The translations under genes were made by a program, and so were the position numbers. Below the pieces are notes generated by a model. That model saw nothing but the letters and a program-made list of their open reading frames with translations, made no database searches and was not told the origin of the DNA. A DNA stretch of 64,000 bases. Source: Pseudomonas sp. B21-040 (GTDB taxonomy: Bacteria; Pseudomonadota; Gammaproteobacteria; Pseudomonadales; Pseudomonadaceae). Location of the stretch: the NCBI RefSeq assembly GCF_024748695.1, contig NZ_CP087176.1, positions 6,627,501-6,691,500 of the forward strand, given 5' to 3'. Below, piece after piece: positions 4,979 to 50,908 of this stretch; position 1 is the stretch's first letter; each line of letters begins with the position of its first letter.

Positions 4979-5257
4979 TCATGGGCGGCCATTCGGCAGA
5001 CGCTGGTAGACGGCCTGCTCGGCCCGATGCACCGCCCCGATCATGGCCCGGTAGGCCTCGGCGCCAATCAACCCGGCGGCCTGCAGTCCCAGGGTGAAGC
5101 CAAGGGCGTGCGCGATGTGGTGTTGGATAATCGGGACCGCCAGGTGCTCACCGATGCGCTGTAGCTCGGTGTCCCAGGCCTGTTGCAAGGACGGGGTCGG
5201 CAGGCGCAGCGGCAGCGGCAGCGGGTCATCCGGCATCGGTTCTTTTGAGCGCGACAT
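4979..5257 (-). CDS. Small conserved protein of unknown function (paralogue A)
   Basis: 92 residues, ATG at 5257 preceded by CAGGAGCCTCCCC. The central part (LRLPTPSLQQAWDTELQRI and IAHALGFTLGLQAAGLI) aligns with the protein at 5806-6096, so the two are diverged copies of one family on opposite strands. No signal peptide or catalytic motif is visible. The middle is alanine-rich and likely helical, and the N-terminus is proline-rich. I do not recognise the family. Confidence 0.6.
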   Translation of the reverse strand: MSRSKEPMPDDPLPLPLRLPTPSLQQAWDTELQRIGEHLAVPIIQHHIAHALGFTLGLQAAGLIGAEAYRAMIGAVHRAEQAVYQRLPNGRP

Positions 5258-5360
5258 GGGGAGGCTCCTGGGCGAATGAGTGGCCGACGGTGCGTCAAAC
5301 CAGAGGGCCGGGGGTCGGTATACCAGTCTAGGCGGTGGTGATTTCCGCCGCCAATCAAAA

Positions 5361-5391
5361 AGGCCCCCGCACCGGGCTGAGGTGGGGGCCT
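5361..5391. terminator. Bidirectional terminator-like hairpin
   Basis: AGGCCCCC at 5361-5368 pairs with GGGGGCCT at 5384-5391, with additional inner pairing (CACC/GGTG). It is flanked by AAAAA on the left (T-run on the minus strand) and TGTTTT on the right. It stands between the 4979-5257 gene and the remnant at 5500-5735. Confidence 0.65.
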
Positions 5392-5499
5392 GTTTTACAT
5401 AAGCGGCGTTATGGGTAATCGGCGGTTTTTTTTATGGCGTTCAGCACCATAGGTAAGTGATAGCCCCCGTTTTTGGGGAATTGTCCTAAAGGAAAATTG

Positions 5500-5735
5500 A
5501 TGTCTGGTGTAATGACGTGGCGGGTTTATCGCGGTGCCGCGAAGCGTGGCGCTGACGTGGCCTACTGGCGTGGATTTTGCTTCGACGGTTAGAGGCAGCA
5601 TTCATTGATGCATCAAAGCCGGAGATTAGCGCCTTGTGGAAACATCCTCTACTGCTCGGCATTACCTGTGGATTTGCGATCTTCACATTCGGTTTGGTTG
5701 TGAGCTTTAGCGTAATCCTGTGGCAGATGAGATAA
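5500..5735 (+). pseudogene. Possible frameshifted small membrane-protein gene
   Basis: An ATG at 5500 with AAAGGA upstream opens 30 codons (MSGVMTWRVYRG...) ending at TAG 5590. In the +1 frame an open stretch from 5556 to TAA 5735 encodes a credible membrane-protein end: ALWKHPLLLG followed by FAIFTFGLVVSFSVILW. One indel would join them into a protein of about 75 residues with one transmembrane helix. Alternatively the second part starts at TTG 5577. No family recognised. Apart from this and the hairpin at 5361, I see nothing in the 548 bp between the two paralogues. Confidence 0.3.
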
Positions 5736-5805
5736 CCAATCGATTAACGGTAAGCTTTCTTGATAAACAGCCGTACGATGCCCAACTTAAACAGGAAGCG
5801 CCCAT

Positions 5806-6096
5806 ATGCAGCGCGTAAACGAATTATCCCCCATAGACTCGATCGACCCACTCTCTGTGCGTTTGCCGACGGAATCGCTGCAATGCGCTTGGGAAACGTC
5901 GCTGGAAAACATCATTCAGGCCCGCACGGAACTGGCCATTCTAGAGCACGTTTCAATCGCCCGGGGTTTTGCATGGGGTGTCCATGCGGGTGCGCTGGTT
6001 GACCATACGGATTTCACTTCGATGGGCGCGAAAATCATCCTGGCTCACCAAGAGGCCTTAGATAAATGCAGGAACACCATCATCGAGAACGGTTGA
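5806..6096 (+). CDS. Small conserved protein of unknown function (paralogue B)
   Basis: 96 residues, ATG at 5806 with AGGAAGC upstream. Shared with the protein at 4979-5257: (L)RLPTxSLQxAWxTxL, then a helical stretch ending in ARGFAWGVHAGALVD, then a final helix (ILAHQEALDKC). The similarity spans most of both proteins, so this is a duplicated accessory gene, now convergent/divergent with its copy. The first residues (NELSPIDSIDPLSV) replace the proline-rich start of the copy. Function unknown; cytoplasmic by appearance. Confidence 0.65.
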   Translation: MQRVNELSPIDSIDPLSVRLPTESLQCAWETSLENIIQARTELAILEHVSIARGFAWGVHAGALVDHTDFTSMGAKIILAHQEALDKCRNTIIENG

Positions 6097-43510: not shown

Positions 43511-44161
43511 TCAGCTCAGCCAGTCAAGGGTCAGGATCAAACGACGCTCGCCCAATGCGGGTTGCGGCGAGCGGTGAATCAGGCCGAAACCTTCGTTGCC
43601 GTGCCACTTCTCGCCCTTAAACAGCGCCACATGCGCGCTGGCGATTTGCTCGATCAGCGAATCCTGTACAGGCTCAGCCTGAGGTTGGCTCAATTGGCGA
43701 CGATCCATAACACCCTCTCGCAGCCACTGACTGCCGATGCCGGAATACGTAGTGATTAACCGCACCGGCACATGATCGACGTGGAAACGCGGGCACATGG
43801 CCTTGTCCAGTGCCCGTAAACGCAGGCCGATGCGCTTGGCGCCCAACAAACAGGCAAACGCGCTGACCAGCCAGGACACGTCGGCGACGAACGCTCCATA
43901 CCCTTCCAGATCGCTGAAGCCCGAAGCTAATCCTCGCAGATCGGGTTCAGTCTCATCGTCGAGTAATTCCAGAACCCGTGATTCGGCCAGCGGCTGATTC
44001 TGCGACAGCAGCAAGTGGCCGAAATCGGCGATATGTACCGGTAATTGACGCTGCCAAGTGGCTAGATTGACCCCGTCATCAAGAATTCGGGTTAGCGTTT
44101 TCGGCGTTTCACCCTGGACTTGTTGAACGACAGAACGCCGCTTCAGAGTCGGCGCCAGCAT
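43511..44161 (-). CDS. DUF1826 protein
   Basis: 216 residues. Its ATG shares one base with the stop of zigA (TGATG overlap), so it is translated with zigA. DUF1826 genes are regularly found beside zinc-linked COG0523 GTPases. The sequence has a C-terminal block HVALFKGEKWHGNEGFGLIHRSP with several histidines, after VPVRLITTYSGIGSQWL. It is possibly a client or partner of ZigA. Biochemical function unknown. Confidence 0.85.
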   Translation of the reverse strand: MLAPTLKRRSVVQQVQGETPKTLTRILDDGVNLATWQRQLPVHIADFGHLLLSQNQPLAESRVLELLDDETEPDLRGLASGFSDLEGYGAFVADVSWLVSAFACLLGAKRIGLRLRALDKAMCPRFHVDHVPVRLITTYSGIGSQWLREGVMDRRQLSQPQAEPVQDSLIEQIASAHVALFKGEKWHGNEGFGLIHRSPQPALGERRLILTLDWLS

Positions 44162-45369
44162 CAGGCAGCCGCCTCGTCATGCCATGGACCAAACGGATCG
44201 TGCAGCGCTCGCCAACCCTCGGCTCCCAAAGCCATCTCCGCGTCGGTCAGCAGGCAATCGTCTAGTTCAGCGGTGAGTTGTGCGAAGTCGATGTTTTGGC
44301 CGATGAACACCAGTTCCTGGCGGCAATCGCCGGTGGCGGCGCTCCAGTTTTCCATGATTCCAGCGGTGCTTTCTTCATCTTGCGGCCACTGGGTTTTCGG
44401 CACAAACCGCCACCAGCGCCCGGCGAAACCGTGACGCATCAAGCCGCCGGCCTGAGACCAACTGCCGGCGTCCAAAGGTTTGCTGGCCAGCCAGAAAAAA
44501 CCCTTGGAGCGCAGCAGCTTTCCATTCGTCCATGGACGGTCGATGAAGCTGAAAAAACGCTGCGGGTGAAAGGGGCGGCGGGCTCGATAAGCGGTCGAAG
44601 CGATCCCGTATTCCTCGGTTTCCGGCACGTGCTCGCCACGTAGCTCCTGCAACCAGCCTGGCGCCTGAGCCGCTTTTTCGAAATCGAAGCGACCGGTGTT
44701 GAGGATGCTCTGCAGTGGAACTTCACCCATGACCATCGGGATGATCTGCGCCTGTGCATTGAGGCGCTGAAGAATCTCGATCAGCTCCTGGCGCTCACGA
44801 CTGCTGATCAAATCGATTTTGCTGATCAGGATGACGTCAGCGAACTCGACCTGCTCGATCAACAGGTCGGTGATCGAGCGCTCGTCCTCCTCACCCAGGG
44901 TTTCTCCACGGGTGGCGAGGCTTTCGGCGGCTTGATAGTCGAGCAAGAAATTCATGCCATCGACCACGGTGACCATGGTGTCGAGCCGCGCGATGTCGGC
45001 CAGGCTTTGCCCTTGTTCATCACGAAAGGTGAACGTTTCGGCCACGGGCAGCGGTTCGGAAATGCCGGTGGATTCGATCAGCAGATAGTCAAATCGCCCG
45101 TCCTTGGCGAGCTTGCTGACCTCTTCGAGCAAGTCTTCGCGCAAGGTGCAGCAAATGCAGCCGTTGCTCATTTCAATGAGCTTCTCTTGCGCACGATTCA
45201 GGCTGACATCACGCTGGACTTCGCTGCCATCGATATTGATTTCACTCATATCGTTGACGATGACGGCGACTCGCAGGTTGTCGCGATTACGCAGCACGTA
45301 GTTGAGCAGCGTACTTTTTCCGGCACCGAGAAAGCCCGACAGGACGGTCACGGGAAGTCGATTGGGCAT
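44161..45369 (-). CDS. zigA: Zinc metallochaperone GTPase ZigA
   Basis: 402 residues. GTPase motifs [17 protein letters not shown] and LISKIDLIS, and the metal site [19 protein letters not shown]. The C-terminal CobW_C domain includes [10 protein letters not shown] and [15 protein letters not shown]. ZigA binds zinc and supports zinc-dependent enzymes during starvation, as shown in Acinetobacter. A Zur-like palindrome lies 50 bp upstream of its start, shared with a divergent secreted-protein gene. First gene of the zigA-DUF1826 pair. Confidence 0.92.
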
Positions 45370-45418
45370 CAGGGTTTCCTCACAGGGATGCCCGGTCGCA
45401 GTGTCGGGCTTAATTTAA

Positions 45419-45433
45419 TGTTATAGTATAACA
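45419..45433. promoter_or_regulatory. Zur box
   Basis: TGTTATA-G-TATAACA, a perfect 15-bp palindrome matching the gammaproteobacterial Zur consensus (GTTATA-N-TATAAC). It lies between the divergent zigA and the secreted-protein gene at 45513 and can repress both while zinc is plentiful. Confidence 0.85.
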
Positions 45434-45512
45434 ATGCAATCAAGCCACCCTCCTATTGCTCGTGACGACAAAGCGTCCGAAGCTGAACCCCATTCAATCC
45501 CCGAGAAATCCT

Positions 45513-45890
45513 ATGCGTATCGCCCTGAGATTGGCGCTGATGTGCGCTTCGCTGATGGCTGCTACACAAGTCCTGGCGCAGATTCCGAGCCTGGCTAAAT
45601 GCACACGCAGCGCCAATCTGCTCGCCTGCGTGGATGCCGATGGCAATGCGTACAGCGTCAACACCGTCGGTAGCACGATCTATCTGCGCGGCTTCGAAAT
45701 GGCGGGCAACCGCTACTGGGCGCAGACCAACAGTCGCTATGGGCAGCTGACGTTCTTCACCGGTATCGCTTCCGACGGCGAAGCCTGGGTTGGCTACAAC
45801 CGTCGGGTTGGCTGGACAACGATCAACCGCTTTTCCAGTTCTGGAGGCAGTAGCGCCACATTCACCTGTAGCAGGATGACCGGTTGCTAG
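45513..45890 (+). CDS. Small secreted protein of unknown function, likely Zur-controlled
   Basis: 125 residues from ATG 45513; the open frame further upstream would precede the signal peptide. Signal peptide MRIALRLALMCASLMAATQV ends near LAQ. The mature part has four cysteines (KCTRS, ACVDA, TCSRM, GC-stop) and many aromatic and glycine residues (YLRGFEMAGNRYWAQTN, WVGYNRRVGWTTINRF), suggesting a beta-rich periplasmic domain. No known family. It sits about 80 bp from the Zur box, divergent from zigA, so induction under zinc limitation is likely. Confidence 0.7.
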   Translation: MRIALRLALMCASLMAATQVLAQIPSLAKCTRSANLLACVDADGNAYSVNTVGSTIYLRGFEMAGNRYWAQTNSRYGQLTFFTGIASDGEAWVGYNRRVGWTTINRFSSSGGSSATFTCSRMTGC

Positions 45891-45934
45891 GCCTGAAGTG
45901 ACCAAGCGTCGTGAAAAAGGCGTAGTCGAATTTT

Positions 45935-45951
45935 ATGTAATAACATAACAT
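45935..45951. promoter_or_regulatory. Probable second Zur box
   Basis: ATGTAATA-A-CATAACAT: arms agree in six of eight positions and share the ATGT..AT pattern of Zur sites. It is 32 bp upstream of the folE2 start codon. Confidence 0.65.
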
Positions 45952-45982
45952 ATAAAATCGATTCCCCTCGACGGACCTGCTC

Positions 45983-46879
45983 ATGAATGCGCTGACCTTG
46001 CCCGATATCGCCGCGCAAGCTTCTCGCCAAGCCCTGCCACTCGACTGGGTAGGCATGTGCGGCATTGCTCTTCCTGTTGTATTCGATGGCCAACGCATAA
46101 GCGCGAAAGTGGACGCGGGCGTGAGCCTCGATGATGGCGCAGCTCGCGGGATTCATATGTCGCGGTTGTATCTGGCACTGGAGATGCTCGAGCAGCAAGA
46201 CCTGAGCCCCGCACTGTTGCGACGAGTCTTGCAGTGCTTTCTCGACACTCACCAAGGACTGTCTACTTGCGCGTACTTAAGAATTCATGGCGATCTACTG
46301 CTAAAAAGGCCGGCGTTGATCAGCCCATTGGCCGGCTGGAAAACGTATCCAGTGAGCATCGAAGCGCGGCTGAAAAACGCGATGTTCCACGTGGAACTAA
46401 AAATCGACGTTGCTTATTCCTCCACCTGCCCCTGTTCAGCCGCACTTTCCCGGCAGTTGATTCAGCAACAATTCGTCGATGATTTCGCCAACAAGTCGCT
46501 GCAACACGCCGAAGTATTGGCATGGCTCGGTTCCACAAAAGGCATCGTTGCGACGCCCCATAGCCAACGCAGCAACGCGGAGTTACGCCTGCGTCTCGAC
46601 GATTATCTGGATGACCTGCCGCTGATCGCTCTCATCAATGACGCCGAAGCAGCCCTCGGCACTGCCGTACAAACCGCGGTAAAGCGCGCCGATGAACAAG
46701 CCTTCGCCTTGGCCAATGGTCAGAACCTGATGTTCTGTGAGGACGCTGCACGACGTTTGAACCTTGCCCTGAAACGCTCCCCGGGCATTCACGCATTTCA
46801 CATTCGCGTGGTCCATGCCGAAAGCCTTCATGCCCACGATGCCGTCGCTGAAAGCCGATGGAACTGGGAGGCGGCATGA
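45983..46879 (+). CDS. folE2: GTP cyclohydrolase FolE2 (type IB)
   Basis: 298 residues. FolE2 signature DVAYSSTCPCSAALSRQLIQQQF with the metal-ligand cysteine, and the start LPDIAAQASRQALPLDWVG. It makes dihydroneopterin triphosphate for folate synthesis, replacing the zinc-dependent FolE when zinc is short, because it can use Mn or other metals. It heads an operon with a zinc ABC transporter (its stop overlaps the ATPase start, ATGA) and is preceded by a Zur-box-like palindrome. Confidence 0.93.
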   Translation: MNALTLPDIAAQASRQALPLDWVGMCGIALPVVFDGQRISAKVDAGVSLDDGAARGIHMSRLYLALEMLEQQDLSPALLRRVLQCFLDTHQGLSTCAYLRIHGDLLLKRPALISPLAGWKTYPVSIEARLKNAMFHVELKIDVAYSSTCPCSAALSRQLIQQQFVDDFANKSLQHAEVLAWLGSTKGIVATPHSQRSNAELRLRLDDYLDDLPLIALINDAEAALGTAVQTAVKRADEQAFALANGQNLMFCEDAARRLNLALKRSPGIHAFHIRVVHAESLHAHDAVAESRWNWEAA

Positions 46880-47544
46880 TTCGCTGTCAGGCATTGCGTT
46901 GGGGCGCACCCGGACAACCGCTCACACCTGCGCTGGATGTCTATTTGCCGAAGGGAAGCCTGACCGCCGTCATCGGCGCCAACGGCTCGGGTAAAAGCAG
47001 CCTGCTGAAAGTCATCGCCGGACTGCAAAGACCTCTGGCAGGCAACGTCATCCTCAATGTTCCACGTAAGGGCGCCCTCTCCTTCCTCCCCCAGCAACAA
47101 CACTTAGACCGGCAATTTCCCATCAGCCTCCAGGAGTTGGTGGCTGCCGGTTTTTGGGGCATCAAGCTATCGCCTGAATTACGCCGCCAACGCCTCAATA
47201 CCGTGCTGGAGAATTGGTGCCTGAGCGGTCTGGAACAACGCCCGTTAATGGCATTGTCGGGCGGGGAACTGCAACGTGCCCTGCTCGCCCGACTAAGCCT
47301 TGCACAAACGCCACTGGTGTTGCTGGATGAGCCGCACGCAGCACTCGATGAACTCGGTCAGTCGCTGCTCTGGAAACACATCCACGAATGGCACGCCCAA
47401 GGTCGAACCCTGGTTGTGGTGTGCCATGACCTGGCCGCCGTTCGCCAACACATTCCACAGACACTGCTGATCAAAAACACTGGCTGCGTGCTTGGATCGA
47501 GCACCGAGTTGATCCGCCAACAACCTCAAACGCAGGTGGCCTGA
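46876..47544 (+). CDS. Zinc/manganese ABC transporter ATPase (ZnuC-like)
   Basis: 222 residues from ATG 46876 (ATGA overlap with folE2). Walker A GANGSGKSSLLK, Q-loop FLPQQQHLDRQFPISL, signature LSGGELQRALLARL, Walker B LVLLDEPHAALD, H-loop CHDLAAV. It powers the permease that follows, sharing one base (TGATG). It lacks the C-terminal histidine tail of many ZnuC proteins. Likely a second, starvation-induced zinc importer distinct from the main znuABC. Confidence 0.92.
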   Translation: MIRCQALRWGAPGQPLTPALDVYLPKGSLTAVIGANGSGKSSLLKVIAGLQRPLAGNVILNVPRKGALSFLPQQQHLDRQFPISLQELVAAGFWGIKLSPELRRQRLNTVLENWCLSGLEQRPLMALSGGELQRALLARLSLAQTPLVLLDEPHAALDELGQSLLWKHIHEWHAQGRTLVVVCHDLAAVRQHIPQTLLIKNTGCVLGSSTELIRQQPQTQVA

Positions 47545-48410
47545 TGCTCGCCACCGCTCAACTTTGGCAACCGTTCCACGAGTTTGTGTTCATGCGCCGG
47601 GCCCTGCTCGGCGGGCTCTTGCTGGCGGGCAGCACGGCACCGCTGGGGGTGTTTCTGATCTTGCGACGCATGAGCCTGATCGGCGATGCAGTCGCCCACG
47701 GCATCTTGCCCGGTGCCGCACTCGGCTTCTGGTTCGCCGGGTTGAGCCTGCCGGCACTGACTATCGGCGGGTTAGGCGCAGGGTTGTCCATGGCCGGGCT
47801 GGCAGCATGGATCACCCGTCGCACCGGCCTGCGAGAAGACGCCAGCCTTGCCGCGATCTATCCGATCTCGTTGGCCAGTGGTGTGTTGATTCTTGGCATC
47901 GCCGGAAAACGCCTGGACCTGTTGCACCTGCTATTTGGCTCCGCGCTAGCCGTCGATGGTCCGACGCTGACCGGCATGTTGTGGGTCTCGGGCTTCAGCC
48001 TGTTCGCCATGGCCCTCATCTACAAACCACTGTTGCTGGACACCCTCGATCCGCTCTTTCTGCAAACCGTCAGCCGACTCGGACCGCTGGCCCATGGCGT
48101 GTTCCTGATGCTCGTGGTGTTGAATCTGGTGATCGGTTTCCAGGCCATCGGCGCGCTGATGGTGGTCGGTTTGATGATGTTGCCTGCCGCCGCGTCGCGC
48201 TTCTGGAGCCGTCGCTTGCCGGTCTTGATGGGTATCGCCGCGTTGCTGGGTTGTCTCTCGGTATGGCTTGGATTGCTGCTGTCGTTCTACTACTCGCTAC
48301 CCAGCGGCCCGGCCATCGTATTGGTCGCGGGTGGTCTGTATCTGCTGTCCGTGGTGTTCGGACCGGTGCATGGCCTGCTGCGCCGCCCTCCTTTACTCAC
48401 ATCCCAATGA
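47544..48410 (+). CDS. Zinc/manganese ABC transporter permease (ZnuB-like)
   Basis: 288 residues, about eight hydrophobic helices. ABC-3 family marks: FMRRALLGGLLLAGSTAPLGVFLILRRMSLIGDAVAHGILPG at the start, and VIGFQAIGALMVVGLMMLPAAASRFW in the second half. Inner-membrane channel of the importer; it overlaps the ATPase stop by one base and lies 11 bp before the binding protein gene. Confidence 0.93.
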   Translation: MLATAQLWQPFHEFVFMRRALLGGLLLAGSTAPLGVFLILRRMSLIGDAVAHGILPGAALGFWFAGLSLPALTIGGLGAGLSMAGLAAWITRRTGLREDASLAAIYPISLASGVLILGIAGKRLDLLHLLFGSALAVDGPTLTGMLWVSGFSLFAMALIYKPLLLDTLDPLFLQTVSRLGPLAHGVFLMLVVLNLVIGFQAIGALMVVGLMMLPAAASRFWSRRLPVLMGIAALLGCLSVWLGLLLSFYYSLPSGPAIVLVAGGLYLLSVVFGPVHGLLRRPPLLTSQ

Positions 48411-48421
48411 GGTGTTTTCCG

Positions 48422-49297
48422 ATGCGCGCTCTACTCGTGCTGTTCAGTTTGATGCTATCGATGTCACTGTCTGCTGCGGAAAAACTTCAGGTAGTCACCA
48501 GCTTCAGCATCCTCGCCGACATGACCCATCAGGTCGGCGGCGACCATATCCAGATCACCAACATGGTCGGCCCCGACGCCGATGCCCACACTTACGAGCC
48601 GACGCCGGACGATGCCAAAGCGTTGCTCCGTGCCCAGTTGATCATCAAAAACGGGCTGGGTTTCGAACCTTGGCTGGACCGCCTGGTGACCAGCACCGAG
48701 ACCAAGGCGCCGATCATTAGCGCAAGTCACGGCGTCATCCCGCGCTCCCTGGATGAAGACGGCGAAACCGTTCCCGACCCTCACGCTTGGCACAACCTGG
48801 CGAACACCGAACTGTACATCGCCAACATCACCAAAGCGCTGATCGCTGCGGACCCGGTGAACAAGGCTGACTACCAACGTAACAGCCAGGCGTACCTGAA
48901 ACAGATCTACGCGCTGCTTGCCGAAGCCAAGGCCAAGCTCGGTTCACTACCGCCAGGCAATCGCAAAATCGTGACCTCCCATGACGCCTTCGGGTATCTC
49001 GGTCAGGCCTACGGAATCGACTTCATGGCACCTCAGGGCCTGTCCACCGAACGCGAACCTTCGGCTGCCGAAGTGGCTGCACTGATCACTCAGATTCGTC
49101 AGGCCAAGGTCAAAGCGGTGTTCATGGAAAACATTAAGGACGCCCGCCTGCTGAAGCAGATTGCCGATGAAAGCGGCGCGCACATCGGCGGCACGTTGTA
49201 CTCCGATGCCCTCGCCGCCACCGGGCCGGCCAGCACCTTTGCCGGGCTGTTCGAGTACAACCTCAATACTCTGTACGAGACGTTGAGCAAGCCATGA
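48422..49297 (+). CDS. Zinc/manganese periplasmic binding protein (ZnuA-like)
   Basis: 291 residues from ATG 48422; the long frame that begins at 47564 is a shadow of the permease. Signal peptide MRALLVLFSLMLSMSLSAAE. Cluster A-I metal ligands: DAHTYEPTPDD, DPHAWHNL, TSHDAFGYL and YSDAL. The histidine-rich loop of true ZnuA is missing, so zinc affinity might differ; manganese cannot be excluded, though the Zur context favours zinc. Its stop overlaps the next gene (ATGA). Confidence 0.92.
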   Translation: MRALLVLFSLMLSMSLSAAEKLQVVTSFSILADMTHQVGGDHIQITNMVGPDADAHTYEPTPDDAKALLRAQLIIKNGLGFEPWLDRLVTSTETKAPIISASHGVIPRSLDEDGETVPDPHAWHNLANTELYIANITKALIAADPVNKADYQRNSQAYLKQIYALLAEAKAKLGSLPPGNRKIVTSHDAFGYLGQAYGIDFMAPQGLSTEREPSAAEVAALITQIRQAKVKAVFMENIKDARLLKQIADESGAHIGGTLYSDALAATGPASTFAGLFEYNLNTLYETLSKP

Positions 49298-49854
49298 TCC
49301 GCAAGAACCCTTCAGGTGATTTACCGCTGATTGCGCAGTCCGCCTATGTGGACAAGACCGCAATCATCTGCGGCAAAGTGGTGATCGGCGAGAACGTTTT
49401 CGTCGGCCCTTACGCGGTGATTCGCGCCGACGAAGTAGACGCCGACGGCGAAATGGAACCGATCACCATCGGCGCCAACTCGAACATTCAGGACGGCGTG
49501 GTGATTCACTCCAAGTCCGGCGCGGCAGTCACTATCGGCGAGTTCAGTTCGATCGCCCACCGCTCCATTGTCCACGGCCCCTGCACGGTCGGTGATCGAG
49601 TGTTCGTCGGTTTCAACAGTGTGCTGTTCAACTGCGTGGTCGGCGATGGCTGCGTGGTGCGGCATAACTCGGTGGTCGACGGACGCGATTTGCCCGAAGG
49701 GTTCTACGTGCCCTCCACTACCCGTATCGGACCGAACACGGACCTGTCGCAATTCCCGCCGGTCAGCGTCAGTGCCTCGGAGTTTTCCGAGGACGTGGCC
49801 CGGACCAATGTCGATCTGGTGCGCGGTTACAAAGCGCTGCAAAACGAGTTCTGA
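49294..49854 (+). CDS. Gamma-class carbonic anhydrase-like hexapeptide protein
   Basis: 186 residues of left-handed beta-helix repeats (KVVIGENVFVGPYAVIRADE, CTVGDRVFVGFNSVLFNCVVG). Histidine ligands are placed as in gamma carbonic anhydrases: GVVIHSKSG and SIAHRSIVHG. Such enzymes can work with iron or cobalt, so one encoded in a Zur operon could stand in for zinc beta-type enzymes. Start overlaps the binding-protein stop (ATGA), so it is co-translated. Activity is inferred from family only. Confidence 0.88.
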   Translation: MIRKNPSGDLPLIAQSAYVDKTAIICGKVVIGENVFVGPYAVIRADEVDADGEMEPITIGANSNIQDGVVIHSKSGAAVTIGEFSSIAHRSIVHGPCTVGDRVFVGFNSVLFNCVVGDGCVVRHNSVVDGRDLPEGFYVPSTTRIGPNTDLSQFPPVSVSASEFSEDVARTNVDLVRGYKALQNEF

Positions 49855-49856
49855 CG

Positions 49857-49937
49857 ATGAGCAGCGTGCTGATTCGCACTATCCACCTTGTTGGAATTAA
49901 TGGCAGACGAAGTCCTGCCGATAACCACCCCTCATAG
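49857..49937 (+). pseudogene. Remnant 5' end of a dihydroorotase gene
   Basis: Two bp after the carbonic anhydrase stop a frame reads MSSVLIRTIHLVG and then turns to unrelated sequence, with a stop after 26 codons. MSS(V/L)LIR-x-x-x-LV is how the pyrC2/pyrQ-type dihydroorotase begins, and that gene follows the gamma carbonic anhydrase in the equivalent Zur cluster of other pseudomonads. The rest of the gene is missing up to the thrS-like gene at 50012, so a deletion is likely. Confidence 0.5.
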
Positions 49938-50011
49938 CGAAGACCCGTCAGCGCAGTTCTCTACGGTTAATGCGCTAGCGCGAATAATAGAAGCACTCGA
50001 GAGCATCACCC

Positions 50012-50908
50012 ATGATTCAAATCCGCCTGCCTGATGGTTCACTGCGTGAATACAACCAACCGCTGTCCGTGTCCGAACTCGCTGCCAGTATCAGCCCCGG
50101 GTTGGCGAAAGCGGCGGTGGCCGGTCGGGTGGAGGGTGTGTTGGTGGATTGTGAATACATGATCAGGAGCGATGCGCGGGTCAGCATCGTCACACCTCAG
50201 GAACCCGATGGCCTGGAAATCCTTCGGCGGTCCTGCGCGTTGATCCTGGCAATGGCGGTCAAGCAGCTTCATCCCAATGTGCAGTTGCAGTCTGGATCGG
50301 CGTTGGGTGACGGATTCTTTTACGGTTTTACCCTCGAGCAATCGTTAACCCGCGACGACCTGCCACTGATCGAAGCTCGCATGCAGATACTCGCGGCGAC
50401 CAACCACTCGATCCGTCGACGAACAATGAAGTCGACAGAGCAACTGTCGTTATACCGCCTGGGGGACTTCGAACAGTTGACGACTGGCCCGCACGTTCCG
50501 GCCACGAAGGTGTTGCAGGCTTTCTCCCTCGACTCCATTAGCGGAACGTCTGAGCAACGAATCTACGGCACGTGTTGGTCTTGCCAACAGGAACTGGACA
50601 ACTGGCGAGCCCCTCCGCTTGTCATCATTGTCAGCATGGCTGAACGCCAAGCGAGTTATGCCCAGTCGGTGACCGAGACATTGCGTCGTAGCGGTGTGCA
50701 TGCTCATGCGGATCTGCGGCATGAAAAGGTCCGCCACAAGATTCGCGAACACAGTCAAAGAGTGCCGTACCTGATGGTCGTGGGCGAGAAAGAACAGGAA
50801 GGGGAATTCGTCAGTGTGCGCAGCGGTGCCGGTGAGGACCTGGGCAGGATGGATGTTGAGGCTGCGTGTCAGTGGCTGAATCGGGTCCGCCCCCACACGA
50901 TCATGTAG
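50012..50908 (+). CDS. Threonyl-tRNA synthetase-like protein lacking the catalytic core
   Basis: 298 residues, ATG 50012 with GAGAG upstream. Residues 1-62 are a TGS domain (MIQIRLPDGSLREYNQPLSV). Residues 66-198 match the ThrRS editing domain: EILRRSCALILAMAVKQLHP, ALGDGFFYGFTLEQSLT, GPHVP, QRIYGTCW. Residues 200-298 match the anticodon-binding domain (ADLRHEKVRHKIREH, RVPYLMVVGEKE). The roughly 300-residue class II core with its zinc site is absent, with a clean in-frame junction near residue 199. The editing HxxxH is changed to L77/M81 and the editing Cys to Thr. It cannot aminoacylate. Intact thrS paralogues occur in Zur regulons; this could be a decayed copy or a tRNA-binding protein with a new role. 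Confidence 0.85.
   Translation: MIQIRLPDGSLREYNQPLSVSELAASISPGLAKAAVAGRVEGVLVDCEYMIRSDARVSIVTPQEPDGLEILRRSCALILAMAVKQLHPNVQLQSGSALGDGFFYGFTLEQSLTRDDLPLIEARMQILAATNHSIRRRTMKSTEQLSLYRLGDFEQLTTGPHVPATKVLQAFSLDSISGTSEQRIYGTCWSCQQELDNWRAPPLVIIVSMAERQASYAQSVTETLRRSGVHAHADLRHEKVRHKIREHSQRVPYLMVVGEKEQEGEFVSVRSGAGEDLGRMDVEAACQWLNRVRPHTIM

Follow-up and report, generated by a model that had tools for sequence, protein, structure and literature searches.

The stretch of DNA analysed here, 64,000 nucleotides of Pseudomonas sp. B21-040 (hereafter the window), contains a paralogue of threonyl-tRNA synthetase (ThrRS) that has lost its entire catalytic core in frame. The gene is a single open frame of 298 aa at 50012..50908 on the + strand and is the final gene of a putative operon under the control of Zur. 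Comparison with other pseudomonads places its origin in a full-length second ThrRS (ThrS2) at the same chromosomal site, and the pattern of substitutions shows that the remaining part is constrained. As to function, our tentative reading, to which we give a probability of about 0.38, is that the protein may be a non-catalytic binder of the anticodon arms of tRNA-Thr, of the leader of the housekeeping thrS gene, or of both, acting in zinc starvation.

A ThrRS descendant without its catalytic core

Based on Pfam, the open reading frame (ORF) contains a TGS domain at residues 2-61 (expectation value, E, 5.6e-10) and an HGTP_anticodon domain at residues 204-289 (E 9.4e-13). A tRNA_SAD match at residues 146-185 scored 22.4 bits, under the cut-off of 24, and the class II core gave zero Pfam matches in the ORF. 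Against NCBIfam thrS (TIGR00418) the ORF scored 108.5 bits, below the cut-off of 383.65. The protein can thus be divided into a TGS domain (residues 1-61, 50012..50194), a degenerate editing (N2) domain (residues 62-195, 50195..50596) and an anticodon-binding domain (residues 196-298, 50597..50905), all on the + strand. The structure model is a confident one, with a predicted local distance difference test (pLDDT) score of 92.3 and a predicted template modelling (pTM) score of 0.87. Model residues 1-190 superimpose on 1tje with a root-mean-square deviation (rmsd) of 2.1 over 190 residues, and the anticodon-binding domain on 1evk with 1.7 over 99.

Alignment with full-length ThrS2 of the same genus leaves a gap of 305 columns between ...DLKA and WLAP..., which covers the linker helix and the catalytic core. 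The join lies after residue 197, at about 50602..50603 on the + strand. A reading made from the sequence alone had described TGS, editing-type and anticodon domains joined in frame with about 300 core residues gone and a junction near 50605; the architecture is as it described and the position was about right. Core-less genes of other assemblies share this join region, except for a 272-aa form with another join. An assembly error is therefore excluded. The seven residues GAYWRGD are likewise missing in 40/40 core-less sequences, and a variable stretch of the editing domain is missing as well. A CWSC (CxxC) motif near the join was considered as a metal site and dropped, since only 5/18 core-less sequences inspected contain it.

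The genome, a single contig of 6.75 Mb, encodes its housekeeping ThrRS elsewhere, at about 2,345,300-2,347,300, and that enzyme aligns with the core-less protein at the two ends only. Judged by the core-less protein, the closest named relatives, at 86-88% identity, are P. arsenicoxydans E3, P. brassicacearum 38D7 and P. mucoides. The zinc ligands Cys/His/His are kept in all 19 full-length ThrS2 sequences; the original count included a twentieth, L069, which is the housekeeping thrS of its genome and was left out of subsequent counts. In 18/18 core-less sequences checked, the alignment has gaps in place of all three ligands. The ORF is a descendant of ThrRS without a catalytic core, and charging of tRNA by its product is excluded, as judged from the residues that are gone.

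Distribution and origin by deletion

Among 398 Pseudomonas genomes, 54 have the core-less form and 26 have a full-length second ThrRS of this lineage; by the numbers of matches none has both. The core-less architecture is therefore not confined to this strain. A protein search returned 563 matches of comparable length, and among the 120 listed, the sources with an organism name were Pseudomonas or metagenomes. Outside the genus, no core-less form was present among the matches listed for 148 genomes of the family (129 of other genera) and 244 genomes of the order, where every match covering both ends in one short frame belonged to Pseudomonas; core-less forms should come first in such a ranking, but a divergent one might escape it, and short frames confined to the N-terminal half were not opened. 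One such frame, in a genome from another family of the order (G646:C178, 6568-7260), is 345 aa long, matches the profile over its N-terminal half alone and may reflect a contig edge or a truncated ThrRS. Eleven genomes (G025, G122, G134, G157, G168, G214, G308, G322, G367, G386 and G397) have four matches and no ThrS2-like best match; perhaps they carry a second ThrRS of a different kind.

In a panel of 17 loci plus the window (18 core-less loci were fetched; the stretch of L050 ends before the gene), the core-less gene is preceded by what remains of folE2, znu and gCA and followed by duf3617-cls-cfa. In 15 of the 19 full-length loci examined, these flanks enclose full-length ThrS2, and the site was therefore occupied by a complete enzyme in the ancestor. 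By sequence comparison, the core-less gene is shown to have arisen from full-length ThrS2 by deletion. Close relatives do not have the intact gene: full-length second copies were found in none (0/57) of the nearest genomes, a set chosen by a neighbouring gene (duf3617 at least 89% identical), and stand at this site in more distant species. One locus, L047, whose protein is identical to one of P. purpurea, lacks the core while its editing domain is nearly full length and has R73 and L77 (see below); by its composition, it is an intermediate form.

Whether the core was lost once or twice depends on the data considered. The gene tree, in which L069 was still a row, unites all core-less forms with an ultrafast bootstrap (UFBoot) value of 83. 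In a tree of seven neighbour genes, the 272-aa form, of the P. canadensis / P. reactans type, instead joins P. gingeri-type species that have the full-length copy, with a UFBoot value of 97. The first 136-137 residues of this form are 72-73% identical to two full-length copies of the P. gingeri type versus 62-65% to two core-less ones. In approximately unbiased (AU) topology tests on 29 of 59 sequences, one versus two origins gave p values of 0.604 versus 0.187 for protein and 0.603 versus 0.179 for codon positions 1+2. The gene tree prefers a single origin, the topology tests reject neither, and the cut that removed the core may have been made twice.

Annotation does not always register the loss. 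The core-less copies P0035 and P0133 are labelled threonine--tRNA ligase, and annotators should be warned that such copies get filed under that name.

A candidate binder of anticodon arms

The anticodon-binding domain of the core-less proteins is well kept. The equivalents of E. coli D572, R574, E576, K581, R583, E600 and R609 are conserved in 40/40 sequences; R583, E600 and R609, together with N575, are residues that we take to be anticodon contacts in the E. coli complex. In that organism, according to the part of the review PMC7373986 that deals with thrS, ThrRS represses its own gene by binding two hairpins with a CGU anticodon, its amino terminus clashes with the platform of the 30S subunit, and deletion of the amino-terminal region abolishes regulation. 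The core-less protein retains both modules of that repressor, its N-terminal region as well as its anticodon-binding domain.

The leader of the housekeeping thrS gene offers a candidate target. It contains two hairpins in 20/20 Pseudomonas loci, ten from genomes with the core-less gene and ten from others. The proximal hairpin, before the Shine-Dalgarno sequence, can form a six-pair stem with the loop UUGGUAG, and the distal hairpin has the loop GCUGUAA, ACUGUGA or ACUGUGC. In this form both resemble anticodon arms, with seven-base loops and GU at places 35-36; the arm scan and the proximal-arm pattern required this GU by construction, whereas the leader alignment did not. The distal hairpin folds with its seven-base loop in the four leaders subjected to minimum-energy folding. 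In the B21-040 genome the proximal-arm pattern occurs once, immediately before thrS, and the background frequency of such arms in the window is 0.037 per 170 nt. The strict pattern was found in 9 of 145 genomes of the order, and a reversed control pattern had no match among the rows listed. Eight of the nine lie directly before the thrS match; the ninth, in G577, is not comparable. A search of Rfam with the four leaders, including matches with E up to 1, returned nothing. Related hairpins also occur in thrS leaders of other genera: among 13 further thrS-like loci (L076-L088; some from other genera, some second ThrRS copies), eight had a proximal arm, with GGU or CGU in the loop, four had none, and in one no start was found.

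The proposed course of events starts from what the sequence comparisons show: a duplicated full-length ThrS2 in a zinc-related operon lost its catalytic core in frame, and selection has kept the remainder intact in dozens of species. Zur would repress the operon when zinc is plentiful, and the core-less protein would be made when zinc is scarce. It could then bind RNA that is shaped like an anticodon arm and bears G35-U36, the threonine signature; the targets would be tRNA-Thr, the hairpins of the thrS leader, or both, while its N-terminal part would hinder the ribosome as that of E. coli ThrRS does. The outcome might be less synthesis of a zinc enzyme or a buffering of uncharged tRNA-Thr. The effect could go either way, as repression or as displacement of the housekeeping repressor when the latter is without zinc. 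A bolder version, in which a translational regulator for zinc starvation was made by subtraction, ThrRS being cut down by selection to its anticodon-RNA-binding and ribosome-excluding modules so that it acts in trans on the translation of thrS or on the pool of tRNA-Thr, is in our estimate unlikely. If this reading were true, zinc homeostasis would be linked to the control of threonine charging.

Several points weigh against RNA binding of this kind. Minimum-energy folding of the four leaders gave the proximal hairpin nine pairs and a three-base GGU loop, not a seven-base loop. The leader hairpins are alike in genomes with and without the core-less gene. No anticodon arm was found when the Zur operon itself (45401-50012, + strand) was scanned. 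The equivalent of N575 is Asn in just 22 of the 40 core-less sequences. Much of the retained anticodon-domain sequence is conserved in other class IIa enzymes as well, and the conservation of this domain may reflect the fold alone. The most constrained part of the protein is the TGS domain and not the anticodon domain, and RNA binding accounts for the constraint on TGS only in part. E. coli ThrRS acts as a dimer on two hairpins, and the catalytic part of the dimer core is missing here, so the affinity could be too low; a dimer of another kind may still form. Finally, the core-less gene is missing outright from 12 of the 57 close genomes and is hence dispensable.

Self-regulation of the operon through an arm of this type was also considered and rejected, there being none in 45401-50012 on the + strand.

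Comparison with known systems

Among the nearest systems is full-length ThrS2 of Pseudomonas, which occupies the same operon and site and represents the ancestral type; it differs in retaining the core, the zinc ligands and the editing residues. In the relevant part of PMC2770081, Haas et al. count ThrRS among the zinc-enzyme paralogues that belong to Zur regulons and state that its zinc-binding residues are conserved; the description given there fits full-length ThrS2 and not the core-less form. A second ThrRS of Anabaena (T2) is controlled by Zur and aminoacylates at low zinc, according to passages of PMC4787780; the core-less protein, in contrast, cannot charge tRNA. The likeness to the E. 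coli ThrRS repressor lies in the N-terminal region and anticodon-binding domain on the protein side and perhaps, on the RNA side, in the two anticodon-arm-like hairpins of the Pseudomonas thrS leader. Unlike that repressor, the core-less protein is without the catalytic core and part of the dimer interface, and its gene is located in a zinc operon and not with thrS.

Paralogues of aminoacyl-tRNA synthetases (aaRS) with new jobs are usually regarded as reshaped catalytic cores. HisZ and YadB both retain the catalytic core fold, whereas in the core-less ThrRS that core is the part that was lost. HisZ is the partner of HisG. These two proteins resemble the core-less ThrRS in being aaRS descendants with a task other than charging their own tRNA, as stated in the section of PMC7373986 that mentions them. 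Among the papers listed in our literature searches, none described a bacterial ThrRS from which the whole core was dropped and the rest retained. That aaRS paralogues can take on other roles is already known; the loss of the entire core with the remainder kept appears, from these searches, to be the new aspect. Here it is the core that was discarded, selection has maintained the accessory RNA-binding parts, and both the intact ancestral gene at the same site and the L047 intermediate exist. This makes it testable which part of a stress ThrRS the cell needs in zinc starvation.

Two other functions for the retained domains were weighed. The principal one, which we regard as improbable, is a ribosome-associated factor of zinc starvation, whose TGS and pseudo-editing domains would dock as those of mL39 (MRPL39) do and would hold, hibernate or remodel ribosomes. 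mL39, which presumably descends from ThrRS, likewise combines TGS with the ThrRS editing fold and has no catalytic core. It is, however, a mitochondrial ribosomal protein, and the sequence similarity is marginal (E 0.036). The TGS/editing fold is common to the N-terminal part of any ThrRS, the structural match stops at about model residue 240 and thus shows no complete anticodon domain in mL39, and the conserved anticodon domain would have no role in this reading.

The other function, for which we see still less of a chance, is that of a protein partner, for example of the housekeeping ThrRS or of another zinc-starvation protein, with RNA binding lost or secondary. The precedents are aaRS paralogues with other tasks, including HisZ in histidine biosynthesis (part of PMC7373986), and the two ThrRS of Anabaena, which heterodimerise under low zinc in the account given in part of PMC4787780; in addition, the domains of the core-less protein are predicted to form one confident model. 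Nevertheless, the core of the ThrRS dimer lies in the catalytic and anticodon domains (as a portion of the review PMC11088916 has it), of which the catalytic part is missing here, and the residues on the anticodon face are conserved.

Selection and gene loss

The ratio of nonsynonymous to synonymous substitution rates (dN/dS) of the core-less genes was 0.166 overall, as measured on 398 of the 780 pairs of 40 sequences, those with dS of 0.15-1.2. These values are pairwise Nei-Gojobori estimates with the Jukes-Cantor correction on related pairs and not the product of a codon model on a tree. By part, dN/dS was 0.107 for TGS, the lowest among the domains, 0.133 and 0.116 for editing parts a and b, 0.174 for the anticodon domain and 0.452 for one loop. 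When whole-gene dS was used, the absolute values changed and TGS was again under the strongest constraint. The core of full-length ThrS2 gave 0.129. Seven neighbour genes, compared in 18 of the same genomes (14-18 per gene), gave 0.05-0.107. The core-less gene is constrained, yet less so than its neighbours.

The frame is unbroken in 67 of 69 named core-less loci, a set in which a single assembly contributes three loci, as separate contigs, and which is biased to intact copies as it was fetched by the core-less protein. The exceptions are L147, which runs into a contig end and shows nothing upstream, and L160 (about 5001-5900, Pseudomonas sp. ANT_J12), a frameshifted copy. Upstream, 28 of these 69 loci have an intact pyrC2 and 42 an intact gCA; both genes are intact in 10/10 full-length loci. 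In the neighbour-chosen set of 57 genomes, the core-less gene is intact in 45 and gone in 12, and a full-length second copy never occurs; in this set the core-less frame is present whole or not at all. The 12 sites without the gene show deletions; in L192 the C-terminal end can still be read as a remnant, and three further sites contain short DNA matches.

The sequence-only reading had set a deletion relic against retained function, favouring the latter on account of the long open frame, and these data speak for retained function: the form is present in 54 of 398 genomes, is under purifying selection and has an intact frame in most of the close genomes. A functionless, slowly decaying relic is largely refuted and has very little probability left. 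It would agree with an editing domain that shrank differently between lineages, with the 12 losses, with the frameshift in L160 and with a constraint weaker than that of the seven neighbours. On the other hand, the dN/dS of 0.17 lies below the 0.201 of the same columns in full-length ThrS2, and the frame has stayed open in loci where pyrC2 and gCA have often decayed.

Editing residues

The two histidines of the editing HxxxH motif are replaced in the core-less protein of the window. The HxxxH motif had been read as L77/M81; the correct ThrRS positions are 73 and 77, for which the numbering of E. coli ThrRS and of the core-less protein agree (residues 4-139), and the residues here are R73 (codon at 50228..50230, +) and L77 (50240..50242, +), both His in 19/19 full-length ThrS2. 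As had been noted, the editing cysteine is replaced by Thr: the place of E. coli C182 is T157 (50480..50482, +). The GPHVP and QRIYG blocks are retained as claimed, and so is H186 (H161 here). Across the 40 core-less sequences, H73 and H77 occur in none, C182 in 4 and H186 in 37. Position 73 is Arg and position 77 is Leu or Ser in all of them, and the C182 place is Ser, Thr, Ala, Gly or, in the four, Cys. In alignment A2, H73 was found in 2 of 52 sequences (P0006 and P0115) and H77 in 0 of 52; L144 alone of the 69 named loci has H73, and it is without H77. Position 73, with the change from His to Arg, is the only one at which the core-less and full-length groups differ by residues fixed to 95% or more in each. 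Editing through the known residues is very unlikely on this evidence, and a trans-editing enzyme that removes mischarged Ser-tRNA-Thr in zinc starvation, although the editing fold, GPHVP and mostly H186 are retained and the zinc-less ThrRS of Anabaena edits in trans in the relevant part of PMC4787780, is scarcely credible given that all four editing residues are kept in 19/19 full-length ThrS2, whereas H73 and H77 are always, and C182 mostly, replaced in the 40 core-less sequences.

The zinc operon and its neighbours

The operon begins with folE2 (45983..46879), followed by znuC-like ATPase (46858..47544), znuB-like permease (47544..48410) and znuA-like zinc-binding protein (48422..49297) genes, the three being named by sequence and context with no family search, and by a gamma-class carbonic anhydrase-like gene (gCA, 49294..49854); all are on the + strand. 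From folE2 to gCA, each gene overlaps the next or is separated from it by no more than about 12 bases. The gap between gCA and the core-less gene is 157 bases and contains a wrecked remnant, about 150 bases long, of the dihydroorotase paralogue pyrC2 (49857..50007, +), which is intact in relatives such as L036. On the opposite strand, zigA (44161..45369, -) encodes a COG0523 zinc metallochaperone GTPase that scores above the NCBIfam cut-off.

An exact Zur-like box, TGTTATAGTATAACA, precedes the divergent zigA (45419..45433, +), and two overlapping imperfect boxes with one mismatch each precede folE2 (45931..45950, +). The window thus has three matches, two of them overlapping, versus 0.63 expected, and three were reached in 2 of 100 shuffles. 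When up to two mismatches were allowed, a Zur-like box preceded folE2 in 17/17 other core-less loci holding the region, with the core-less gene last in the operon. The distance from box to folE2 is at most 46 bp in 16 of these; in L041 it is 96 bp, and one box is shared with zigA. From its position and the Zur-like boxes, we infer that the operon is controlled by Zur. The earlier proposal of a tRNA-Thr or mRNA-leader binding protein acting in zinc starvation accordingly gains support on the side of zinc, whereas the binding to tRNA-Thr or a leader stands as a conjecture.

In three loci (L034, L041 and L049) gCA and pyrC2 have been lost from the operon, in L041 together with znuABC, and the core-less gene has been retained. 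A small ORF at 45456-45890, whose product looks secreted by eye, is present in most panel loci; it follows the Zur-like box that it has in common with zigA.
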